Assembly (NCBI RefSeq): GCF_008017455.1
Contig: NZ_VRTY01000010.1
Span: forward strand, 1-64,000
DNA length: 64,000 bases
Direction: 5' to 3'
Origin: Pontibacter qinzhouensis
GTDB lineage: Bacteria > Bacteroidota > Bacteroidia > Cytophagales > Hymenobacteraceae
Shown: positions 7,393 through 10,321 of the stretch, piece after piece
Position numbering within the stretch: the stretch's first letter is position 1
Layout of the letters: the number at the start of each line of letters is the position of its first letter
The notes under the pieces: model-generated
What the model saw: only the letters and a program-made list of their open reading frames with translations
Databases searched by the model: none
What the model was told of the DNA's origin: nothing
Position numbers and translations under genes: made by a program

Positions 7393-7484
7393 AGTTATAG
7401 CCACAACAGGTAACTTTTTTACGCCAATTTTGTATGTAGTCCTATATAGTTGCCCTTTGTTAAGGATAAATAAAGATAGGGGCC

Positions 7485-7492
7485 TATCTTTG
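7485..7492 (+). promoter_or_regulatory. Candidate -7 element for the ECF sigma operon
   Basis: TATCTTTG matches the Bacteroidota -7 consensus TAnnTTTG and lies 49 bp before the sigma factor ATG. A TTTG at 7456-7459 could be the -33 box, but its 25-bp spacing is longer than usual. Confidence 0.6.
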
Positions 7493-7541: not shown

Positions 7542-8135
7542 ATGAGCGAGCAAACAGGTAAACAACTTAGTAAAGAGGAAAAAGATGCACGGTTTGAGGC
7601 CGAGCTACTTCCTGTACTGGCCCCTCTGTACAACTTTGCCTACAGACTGACCTTAGATGAAGATGATGCCAACGATCTGGTACAGGAAACATATCTTAAG
7701 GCATATCGCTTTTTTGATTACTTCGAACAAGGAACTAATGCAAAAGCATGGCTGTTCCGAATCCTGAAGAACTCCTTCATAAACGAGTTCAGGAAAAAAA
7801 GCAAACAACCCGCTAAAGTAGACTATAGCGAGGTAGAAGGGTATTACAACACCGACGACGTAGAGGGAGAGGGAGGCGTTGCCACCACCACCGATATGCG
7901 CACCGAAAGCGTGCAGGACCTGATTGGAGACGAAGTGGCAAGCGCCTTGAATGCATTGCCTGTCGATTTCAGAACTGTCATAATCTTGTGCGACCTGGAA
8001 GGATTTACTTACGAGGAAATGGCCAAGATTTTAGACATACCGATAGGAACGGTCCGATCGAGGCTGCACCGCGCCAGAAACTCCCTGAAAGAGAAGTTGG
8101 AAGAGTATGCAAAAAGCATGGGATATAACAGTTAA
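7542..8135 (+). CDS. ECF-type RNA polymerase sigma factor
   Basis: This 197-residue sigma-70 family factor has only regions 2 and 4. Region 2 includes LYNFAYRLTLDEDDANDLVQET and the -10 recognition helix around AKAWLFRILKNSFINEFRK. An acidic Gly/Glu-rich linker of about 40 residues follows. Region 4 has ALNALPVDFRTVIILCDLEG and the helix-turn-helix TYEEMAKILDIPIGTVRSRL. A small protein with a zinc anti-sigma motif starts 31 bp downstream and is the likely antagonist. gmk and nadD follow closely, so stress-responsive transcription might extend into them. The regulon is unknown. Confidence 0.94.
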   Translation: MSEQTGKQLSKEEKDARFEAELLPVLAPLYNFAYRLTLDEDDANDLVQETYLKAYRFFDYFEQGTNAKAWLFRILKNSFINEFRKKSKQPAKVDYSEVEGYYNTDDVEGEGGVATTTDMRTESVQDLIGDEVASALNALPVDFRTVIILCDLEGFTYEEMAKILDIPIGTVRSRLHRARNSLKEKLEEYAKSMGYNS

Positions 8136-8166
8136 TCACAAAAAGTATTAAGAGTTTGAAGTTAAG

Positions 8167-8448
8167 ATGGAAACAGAATTTACAGAAGCGTATCAGAGAA
8201 CGTCTGCGGAAGGCAGGGAGACAGAGTGTGAGAAGGTAGCTAATATCTTAGACCTGGTAATAGATGGAGAAGCCAGTACTGATGAGCAGCATTTTTTTAA
8301 TTCTCATATTGAGGAGTGCGTGTCCTGCTTCGAAAGCCATCAAAAGCAAAAGCTTCTGAAAAGCATAATCAGTGGCCATTTAAAGCGTGTTATTGTTCCC
8401 GATCGACTCGCTACATCTATAAAGGCTAGAATCCAAGAAACCGTATAA
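8167..8448 (+). CDS. Small zinc-binding anti-sigma factor (ZAS/RsrA-like)
   Basis: This is a 93-residue soluble protein with no transmembrane segment. It carries Cys21, His47, Cys51 and Cys54, i.e. C-x25-H-x3-C-x2-C. From memory, that equals the ligand spacing of the redox-sensing anti-sigma factor RsrA (C11, H37, C41, C44). In that family the zinc site holds the sigma factor until oxidation releases it. The gene directly follows the ECF sigma gene, which supports an anti-sigma role. Redox sensing is inferred from the cysteine pattern alone. Its stop lies 8 bp before gmk. Confidence 0.85.
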   Translation: METEFTEAYQRTSAEGRETECEKVANILDLVIDGEASTDEQHFFNSHIEECVSCFESHQKQKLLKSIISGHLKRVIVPDRLATSIKARIQETV

Positions 8449-8456
8449 CACCCCTG

Positions 8457-9035
8457 ATGCAAGGAAAAATCATCATATTCTCGGCTCCATCCGGTGCCGG
8501 CAAAACTACAATCGTTAAACACCTGCTACAGGTGAACCCTACATTAGACTTCTCCATCTCGGCCTGCACCCGCGATAAGCGCGGAAGAACCGAAGAAAAC
8601 GGGAAAGACTATTATTTTATCACCCCGGAAGACTTTAAGAAAAGAATAGAGAACGATGAGTTTGTGGAGTGGGAAGAAGTGTATGAAGGCGCTTTTTACG
8701 GCACTCTGAAATCTGAAATAGAGCGTATTTGGGCAACAGGTAAATATCCTATACTGGATGTTGATGTTAAAGGAGGACTGAGTATAAAGGAATTTTACAA
8801 AGACAAAGCACTGGCTATTTTCGTAAAGCCACCCTCAATAGATGAACTGGCCAAACGCCTGACCGCCCGCAACACCGACTCTACGTCCAGTATATCGAGC
8901 AGGGTGTTTAAGGCAGAGTTTGAGCTTCGGTTCGAAAACAAGTTCGACCAGGTAATTGTGAACGATAACCTGGAAGAAGCCTTTGCCAAAGCAGAGAAAC
9001 TGGTAGGCGATTTCCTGAACCCGGAGCAGGCGTAG
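8457..9035 (+). CDS. gmk: Guanylate kinase
   Basis: The enzyme phosphorylates GMP to GDP with ATP in purine nucleotide synthesis. The P-loop SAPSGAGKTT is at residues 9-18, followed by the GMP-binding region (SISACTRDKR, EENGKDYYFI) and lid residues near TARNTDSTSSISSR. At 192 residues it has the normal bacterial length. The gene starts 8 bp after the anti-sigma gene and ends one base before nadD, so the four genes are probably co-transcribed. No Shine-Dalgarno is visible. Confidence 0.97.
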   Translation: MQGKIIIFSAPSGAGKTTIVKHLLQVNPTLDFSISACTRDKRGRTEENGKDYYFITPEDFKKRIENDEFVEWEEVYEGAFYGTLKSEIERIWATGKYPILDVDVKGGLSIKEFYKDKALAIFVKPPSIDELAKRLTARNTDSTSSISSRVFKAEFELRFENKFDQVIVNDNLEEAFAKAEKLVGDFLNPEQA

Positions 9036-9036
9036 C

Positions 9037-9612
9037 ATGAAGGTAGGGCTCCTTTTCGGCTCTTTTAACCCGATCCACGTCGGGCACCTGCTGCTGGCAA
9101 ACTACATGGCTACGAACACCGACCTCAACACAGTTTGGTTTGTAGTATCGCCGCAGAATCCGTTTAAGCAAAGCAACACGCTGCTGCACGAGTTCGACCG
9201 GCTGCACATGGTGTCGCTGGCCATCGGCGATAATCCTGACCTGGGTGTGTCTAACATAGAGTTTCAGATGCCTAAGCCGAGCTACACCATCGATACCCTG
9301 ACCTACCTGCAGGAGAAGTACCCAAGCTATGAGTTTGTATTGATCATGGGGGAGGACAATTTAGCGGGTTTTCCGAAGTGGAAAAACTACGAGAGCATTC
9401 TGAACTACCACCGGGTGTATGTGTACCCGCGTTCAGGCTCCGCCACCACCGATCTTACCACCAGACTGCCTAATGTTACCTTTGTGAAAGCCCCTGTGCT
9501 CGACATATCGGCTACCTTTATCAGAGACTGTATCAGGCAAGGCAAATCGGTCAGGTATATGCTACCCGATGAGGTAGCTGCTTATATTAAAGTGCACAAG
9601 CTTTACCTATAG
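9037..9612 (+). CDS. nadD: Nicotinate-nucleotide adenylyltransferase
   Basis: The enzyme adenylates nicotinate mononucleotide to deamido-NAD in NAD biosynthesis. The nucleotidyltransferase signature GSFNPIHVGHLLLA lies at residues 8-21. FVLIMGEDNLAGFPKWKNYE and the C-terminal ISATFIRD (the ISxTxxR motif that binds ATP phosphates) are also present. The 191-residue length fits the family. The start is one base after the gmk stop, and the gene ends before a strong terminator at 9623-9671. Confidence 0.97.
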   Translation: MKVGLLFGSFNPIHVGHLLLANYMATNTDLNTVWFVVSPQNPFKQSNTLLHEFDRLHMVSLAIGDNPDLGVSNIEFQMPKPSYTIDTLTYLQEKYPSYEFVLIMGEDNLAGFPKWKNYESILNYHRVYVYPRSGSATTDLTTRLPNVTFVKAPVLDISATFIRDCIRQGKSVRYMLPDEVAAYIKVHKLYL

Positions 9613-10075: not shown

Positions 10076-10321
10076 ATGAAAACCTATAAAGTAGTAAAAG
10101 TAACAGCTGCAGAGACTTTCGAAACAAGTCTGAATGAGCTCTCACAAGCAGGCTGGAAAGTGGTAAACGCTAACCTCGTCTTCGCCAACGACACCAATAA
10201 CACGCCTACCTATTTTGCCCTGCTCGAGAATACTCCTTTAGAAGATGAACTAAAACAAATGGTAGAAGAAAACCCTGAGGAGTTACTGAACGACATGGGC
10301 CTGAGCCCTTCGTCTAATTAA
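10076..10321 (+). CDS. Small DUF4177-like protein
   Basis: This 81-residue soluble protein opens MKTYKVVKV, with ETSLNELSQAGWKVVNANLVF further on. That YKVV...LNxLxxxGWxxV pattern resembles DUF4177 proteins. The C-terminal half is acidic (LEDELKQMVEENPEELLNDM). The family's function is unknown. It stands alone between a repeat-containing spacer and the FkbM methyltransferase region. Confidence 0.75.
   Translation: MKTYKVVKVTAAETFETSLNELSQAGWKVVNANLVFANDTNNTPTYFALLENTPLEDELKQMVEENPEELLNDMGLSPSSN

Follow-up and report, generated by a model that had tools for sequence, protein, structure and literature searches.

A SigR/SigH-like sigma factor and its putative RsrA-type anti-sigma partner ahead of gmk and nadD in Pontibacter qinzhouensis, with a candidate metal site that varies across Cytophagales

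The window analyzed here, 64,000 nucleotides of contig NZ_VRTY01000010.1 of Pontibacter qinzhouensis, carries a tight run of genes for an ECF sigma factor, a small anti-sigma protein, guanylate kinase and nicotinate-nucleotide adenylyltransferase (Table 1). The sigma and anti-sigma reading frames lie where a preliminary description of this region had placed them, and the coupling to gmk and nadD that it pointed out stands as a matter of gene order. The gap between the sigma and anti-sigma genes is 31 bp, that between the anti-sigma gene and gmk 8 bp, and that between gmk and nadD 1 bp. In all 46 Pontibacter rows, in which some genomes or species are counted twice, gmk is found within 1 kb downstream and nadD is in the locus. 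The order with gmk is also conserved across the sampled genera of Cytophagales: at least 50 of 61 genera have gmk no more than 1 kb downstream of the sigma gene, which is a lower bound, since some sequence stretches end early, and both the anti-sigma gene and gmk accompany the sigma gene in 47 of the 61. In one genome (G044) the pair is naturally split, the anti-sigma gene (L043:5954-6301) standing 2 bp ahead of gmk and the sigma gene being on a different contig (L126), with no anti-sigma gene recognised beside the latter. Downstream of nadD, the window encodes a small protein of 81 residues (10076-10321) with weak matches to DUF4177 and to a nucleoside-diphosphate kinase model.

Table 1. Features of the sigma/anti-sigma locus, with positions in the window.
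Feature	Position	Strand	Basis
Possible ECF-type box pair (AAC ... GTATGTAG), weak	7412..7439	+	By eye, alignments; common to L005, L009
TATCTTTG box, fits TAnnTTTG; likely promoter of the run	7485..7492	+	Consensus match; box in 31/61 genera
ECF sigma factor, SigR/SigH-like, 197 aa	7542..8135	+	Pfam Sigma70_r2/r4_2, NCBIfam and PDB matches
RsrA-like anti-sigma protein, 93 aa, soluble	8167..8448	+	TIGR03988, PF13490, best PDB match RsrA 5frf
Cys21 codon, candidate N-terminal metal ligand and redox-trigger cysteine	8227..8229	+	46/46 Pontibacter rows
His47 codon, candidate metal ligand	8305..8307	+	46/46 Pontibacter rows; absent in 28/55 genera
Cys51-x2-Cys54 codons, candidate metal ligands	8317..8328	+	46/46 Pontibacter rows; both kept in 47/55 genera
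gmk, guanylate kinase	8457..9035	+	TIGR03263, 203 bits, over NCBIfam cut-off
nadD, nicotinate-nucleotide adenylyltransferase	9037..9612	+	TIGR00482, 180 bits, over NCBIfam cut-off

The sigma factor contains the Sigma70_r2 and Sigma70_r4_2 domains (Pfam, E = 2.8e-16 and 4.9e-17). Its best match among 95 NCBIfam families was TIGR02947 (SigH_actino) with 170.4 bits, short of the cut-off of that model (251.55 bits), and the next family reached 133.9 bits. The nearest PDB chains were SigH (5zx2, 153.5 bits), a SigH chimera (133.1) and another sigma factor (96.9), and the best match in a plasmid collection was a Tsukamurella sigma factor with 45.5% identity, whose gene is followed by an annotated rsrA. 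The stretch NSFINEFRKKSKQPA of the window sigma factor aligns with NTYINSYRKKQRQPA of SigH, in what we take to be region 2.4. In a sigma tree, from which two other ECF rows of the window genome (L191, L197) were left out for a misidentified frame, Bacteroidota sigma factors stood near the actinobacterial SigR/SigH types, within one large clade that also held other ECF sigma factors; this tree, several rows of which are long, gives no firm order of branching. At E up to 1e-50, the sigma factor was found in 208 of 242 Cytophagales genomes, with a single match in nearly all of them, and in 190 of 296 genomes sampled phylum-wide, most of the matching ones from outside the class of the window genome. 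As judged by these searches, it is near-universal in Cytophagales.

The anti-sigma protein has cysteines at positions 21, 51 and 54 only, and His47 is one of its four histidines. As was said in the preliminary description, these residues form a C-x25-H-x3-C-x2-C motif in a protein of 93 residues. The motif arises by chance in 4 of 200,000 shuffles of the sequence; the anti-sigma gene is present in each of the 36 other Pontibacter genomes, and the ligands are kept in 46 of 46 Pontibacter rows, so that neither the motif nor the pair can be ascribed to chance. The protein is also soluble, as proposed: it has no membrane-like stretch (the highest 19-residue Kyte-Doolittle mean is 0.63), and no second domain was seen in a Pfam scan. 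The reading of the ligand spacing as RsrA-type, on the other hand, held only in part. The spacing is exact, and C21, H47, C51 and C54 align with the ligands of actinobacterial RsrA-type proteins, but this spacing is the generic zf-HC2 consensus and by itself no RsrA signature. Positions 1-34 of the Pfam zf-HC2 profile (PF13490, 26.4 bits, above the gathering cut-off of 22.2) align to residues 21-54, and the anti-sigma proteins encoded at L168 and L169, two loci from a family that lies outside the class and may belong to Chlorobi, have identical aligned ligands. Since the spacing is shared by this consensus and by these two proteins, it marks a zinc anti-sigma domain and not RsrA.

Kinship with RsrA is indicated by profile comparisons. 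The best NCBIfam model for the window protein was that of RsrA, TIGR03988 (38.2 bits, E = 1.1e-9), although its curated cut-off of 62.5 bits was not reached; ten relatives scored 25-60 bits. For the order-wide comparison, one anti-sigma protein from each of 55 Cytophagales genera was taken together with that of the window (56 rows). Forty-one of these rows formed an alignment, A2, and the 15 others were scanned separately; in eight of these the ligands are eroded or odd. TIGR03988 matched 41 of 41 A2 rows at E up to 0.1 (best, 7e-18), and it was also the top match in the rows outside A2, in 6 of 6 at E = 1.5e-5 or better and in 9 of 9 at 1.2e-4 or better. The two general anti-sigma models of NCBIfam matched only 2 of the 41 A2 rows each, and zf-HC2 matched 22. 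In a PDB search with the A2 profile, RsrA (E = 1.6e-12) came ahead of RsiW (4.4e-8), and the hhalign comparison of this profile with two actinobacterial RsrA-type proteins gave a probability of 98.7. In the window genome, the RsrA model had a single match at E up to 1, namely the window protein. It also had matches in six of 14 control genomes, over the cut-off in one; as the other five match weakly, low scores with this model are not fully specific. An AlphaFold model made with 12 close sequences was poor (mean pLDDT 63, pTM 0.47); its four helices span residues 13-33, 38-54, 58-68 and 79-91, and it had no fold match at E <= 0.001. The claim of an RsrA-related protein beside a SigR/SigH-like sigma factor, with the N-terminal cysteine in place, is borne out. 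Taken at the family level, the kinship of the window protein with RsrA is real, as far as profiles can tell, but it is that of a distant, variant relative.

The mechanism of RsrA offers a model for the function of such a protein. According to the available text of PMC4960319 (Rajasekar et al. 2016), RsrA binds zinc through Cys11, His37, Cys41 and Cys44; upon oxidation, a bond forms between Cys11 and either Cys41 or Cys44, zinc is lost and the sigma factor is set free. The N-terminal cysteine is described there as necessary for oxidative release, and the Cys11His variant as retaining zinc while not releasing the sigma factor on oxidation. By analogy, we propose with a probability of about 0.58 that the window pair is a cytoplasmic RsrA-type sigma/anti-sigma switch released by oxidation. 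In the reduced cell, C21, H47, C51 and C54 of the anti-sigma protein would bind a metal, which is probably zinc, and the metal-loaded form would keep the sigma factor bound. Thiol oxidation would join C21 to C51 or C54 in a disulfide, upon which the metal would leave and the helices would repack, and the freed sigma factor would direct RNA polymerase to its own promoters. The metal, the binding of the sigma factor and the oxidation trigger are each plausible from the sequence comparisons. As no membrane segment or second domain was seen in the protein, the metal site would be its natural sensor, and redox sensing by it is likely.

The conservation of the cysteines in orthologues, on which the preliminary description had made its proposal depend, holds in the genus but fails in part across the order. 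In Pontibacter, all four residues are kept in 46 of 46 rows, and in a second genus of the same family (g23) C21, C51 and C54 are present in 20 of 20 rows and His47 in 18 of 20. Across the order, however, the exact CHCC set occurs in only 13 of 55 genera. What persists more widely is an N-terminal cysteine, at position 18, 21 or 24, together with at least one distal cysteine (49/55 genera), and 41 of 55 genera have four or more candidate ligands. The commonest pattern, C18, C24, C51 and C54 without His47, is found in 20 of 55 genera. Among the genera, cysteines have moved by one turn of the helix. In families f4 and f20 and in one genus of f19, one or two of six candidate positions remain. His47 has undergone eight changes on the best sigma tree, seven of which are forced by well supported branches. 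All ligand positions across genera were read from one MAFFT alignment. The survey drew on the higher-scoring sigma matches among those listed and on earlier loci, so that the remotest families are thinly covered. In a family of another order (f26), relatives of 77-79 residues are encoded beside the sigma gene; two of them (L069, L073) have no cysteine and one (L070) has a single cysteine.

The C18/C24 pair occurs in 20 of the 24 genera that lack His47 and keep the CxxC. We considered C18 and C24 as a replacement for His47, but a difference as large as that observed arose in 4754 of 20,000 shuffles on the number of N-terminal cysteines, and a comparison of independent pairs on the sigma tree did not bear out such a trade-off. 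The rule was dropped, as it is unsupported once relatedness is counted.

The sigma factor changed far less than its partner. Within Pontibacter, sigma factors are 95-99% identical and anti-sigma proteins 62-83%, and for the first order-level relatives the respective values are 63-76% and 21-34%. A recognised anti-sigma gene nevertheless adjoins the sigma gene in 55 of the 61 sampled genera; none was recognised next to it in the other six (L123, L126, L144, L151, L157 and L158). In these alignments, the metal-site residues have drifted across the order while the sigma factor has remained far more constant. Because ligand-poor relatives keep a well conserved sigma factor, binding of the latter seems not to need the metal site. 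The drift also counts against a sensor role, as strong selection on a sensor site should have kept it from eroding this far.

It is possible, if rather doubtful, that the metal site is structural, as reported for Bacillus subtilis RsiW, and that thiol oxidation is irrelevant, the anti-sigma protein being switched by another signal such as regulated proteolysis, heat or a partner protein. A structural site would fit the generic zf-HC2 spacing, and it would fit the drift or loss of ligands in relatives that retain a conserved sigma factor and a match to the RsrA model, which even the cysteine-free L069 protein matches (E = 0.004). The available text of PMC7406223 argues that groups with mixed motifs point to a structural role, and that of PMC4960319 mentions a peroxide response of RslA, an HHCC protein, which clouds the rule of the N-terminal cysteine. 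However, the Pontibacter protein has no extra domain or membrane anchor that could receive another signal, which favors the redox-released switch.

The four-cysteine lineages bear on the nature of the metal. That the site holds an Fe-S cluster instead of zinc and senses oxygen or iron appears quite unlikely; such a cluster would be expected foremost in the lineages with C18, C24, C51 and C54 and without His47, which make up the 20 genera mentioned above. The RshA protein of Mycobacterium tuberculosis, a partner of SigH, is described in the accessible part of PMC3427169 as preferring Fe-S over zinc. By contrast, RsrA binds zinc via a CHCC set (PMC4960319, available text), and CHCC is what Pontibacter has.

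A broader, tentative reading is that Bacteroidota possess an RsrA-type switch of ancient origin, nearly universal among Cytophagales and shared by several lineages outside the class, whose sigma factor evolved slowly and whose metal site was repeatedly rebuilt. If so, the site would be CHCC in Pontibacter and a four-cysteine site in other families, with ligands one helix turn up or down, and it would be nearly or wholly dismantled in some lineages. The same sigma factor would then hear different chemistry in each lineage, from zinc-thiol to Fe-S or no metal sensing at all. The metal-site variants that occur in nature alongside one sigma factor also lend themselves to tests of what the metal and each cysteine do.

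The preliminary description had further suggested redox control reaching gmk and nadD, and had named a search for a shared promoter motif as a check. SigR/SigH-type sigma factors are autoregulated from a GGAAT...GTT promoter. The 299 bp that precede the sigma gene of the window contain no GGAA[CT]-N15-19-GTT, and GGAATN16-19CGTT was not enriched in 20 Pontibacter genomes: its counts were below those of the reversed-pattern control in 19 of the 20 (47 + 50 versus 95 + 104 in the window genome) and above it in one (G028, 149 versus 127). This pattern asks for more than a bare GTT box, so that such a search could miss a small regulon. The candidate SigR-type regulon was rejected, and the regulon of the window sigma factor does not appear detectably SigR-like. 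Upstream of trxB, TATACTTG was present in 11 of 20 copies from 15 Pontibacter genomes, and no SigR box was seen by eye among these 20 copies, in four of which the start codon chosen lay too far upstream to show the region. Four of the 15 genomes, including that of the window, have two or three copies of trxB, and many of the Pontibacter trxB genes (L215-L234) lie directly behind the end of a gene whose encoded C-terminus resembles, by eye, that of a primary sigma factor.

What precedes the sigma gene is a box of the housekeeping type. TAnnTTTG is given as the Bacteroidota housekeeping -7 consensus in the available text of PMC9723704. When one row per genus, the first, was scanned for it, 31 of 61 genera had the box no more than 120 bp ahead of the sigma gene, as compared with 191 of 3050 shuffled upstream stretches, and the window has it as well.

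That the sigma factor drives its own operon, with oxidation raising guanylate kinase and NAD synthesis, would be in line with the conserved order of sigma, anti-sigma and gmk described above, and with the G044 anti-sigma gene lying next to gmk despite the sigma gene being on another contig. A TGCAACCC-N15-GGTATGTA element, which 15 of 20 Pontibacter genomes have ahead of the sigma gene (L202 is an example), would fit this reading as well. This element is nearly unique in each genome, a second match elsewhere being found in only two. The window genome has no exact match to it, and it is also absent ahead of the sigma gene in all 61 genera, each represented by its first row; as written it is no regulon motif, and it was set aside as an autoregulatory ECF promoter. 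Moreover, the box before the sigma gene is of the housekeeping type, in the window and in about half of the genera, and gmk and nadD are general housekeeping genes. We consider this wiring unlikely, and the suggested redox control of gmk and nadD was not upheld: with the housekeeping-type box in place and no SigR-type promoter or regulon found, the two genes most likely accompany the pair on a transcript of the housekeeping type and are not targets of the sigma factor.

Outside the class, an anti-sigma gene was recognised beside the sigma gene at 8 of 12 loci (L166-L173), some of them encoding longer proteins, and none was recognised at the four others (L162-L165). At two of these loci (L166:2950-4394 and L167:2653-4061), an AhpC/TSA-Redoxin gene follows directly after the anti-sigma gene; a Redoxin gene is found near the L170 pair, and MsrA is encoded upstream in L172. 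Such redox-type neighbours are only suggestive.

These occurrences differ from the picture in a 2020 survey (PMC7406223), the available text of which places all AS12 (RsrA-type) anti-sigma proteins in Actinobacteria and describes Bacteroidetes ECF12 sigma factors as having no such protein encoded in their neighbourhood. The data from Cytophagales and from some lineages outside the class run against this, as far as that text goes, but its ECF12 group may mean other Bacteroidota sigma factors, perhaps ones like those at L162-L165. Among the titles and abstract openings listed, mainly of open-access papers, none named an RsrA homologue in Cytophagales. As regards Cytophagales and some lineages beyond the class, the pair would be a direct candidate answer to the question of how Bacteroidetes ECF12 sigma factors are controlled, left open in the accessible part of PMC7406223. 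By gene content, the host would make bacillithiol and not mycothiol: BshC was found over the cut-off, whereas the MshA model had 21 matches, none over the cut-off, so that the "mycothiol system" in the name of TIGR03988 does not apply here. The pair would also offer a testable redox regulator for bacillithiol-making Bacteroidota.

Among known systems, EcfO-Reo of Bacteroides and Phocaeicola likewise pairs an ECF sigma factor of Bacteroidota with an anti-sigma protein; according to the available text of PMC13114119, it was first linked to long exposure to oxygen. The same text describes Reo as spanning from the cytoplasm to the surface, whereas the window protein is soluble; EcfO-Reo was set aside as the same system because of this description of Reo as envelope-spanning. 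The RsiW-SigW and ChrR-RpoE pairs share with the window anti-sigma protein a broad domain family and the His-x3-Cys-x2-Cys motif, but RsiW and ChrR are of the HHCC type without an N-terminal cysteine, as stated in the accessible part of PMC4960319, while the window protein has C21. RsiW is also a weaker match than RsrA to the A2 family profile. No solved sigma factor is closer to that of the window than SigH (153 bits), which is paired with RshA in mycobacteria and corynebacteria; RshA is described as an Fe-S protein in the available text of PMC3427169.

The closest counterpart is RsrA-SigR of Streptomyces coelicolor (TIGR03988; PDB 5frf, 5frh). It differs in several respects: RsrA has seven cysteines in the description available to us and the window protein three, the window protein scores 38 bits against the RsrA cut-off of 62.5, gmk and nadD follow the window pair, and no promoter of the GGAAT...GTT type was found before it. 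Nevertheless, RsrA is likewise a small soluble ZAS protein encoded right after an ECF sigma factor of the SigR/SigH kind, and, in the numbering given in the available text, its ligands Cys11, His37, Cys41 and Cys44 have the identical CHCC spacing, with the N-terminal cysteine present in both proteins.
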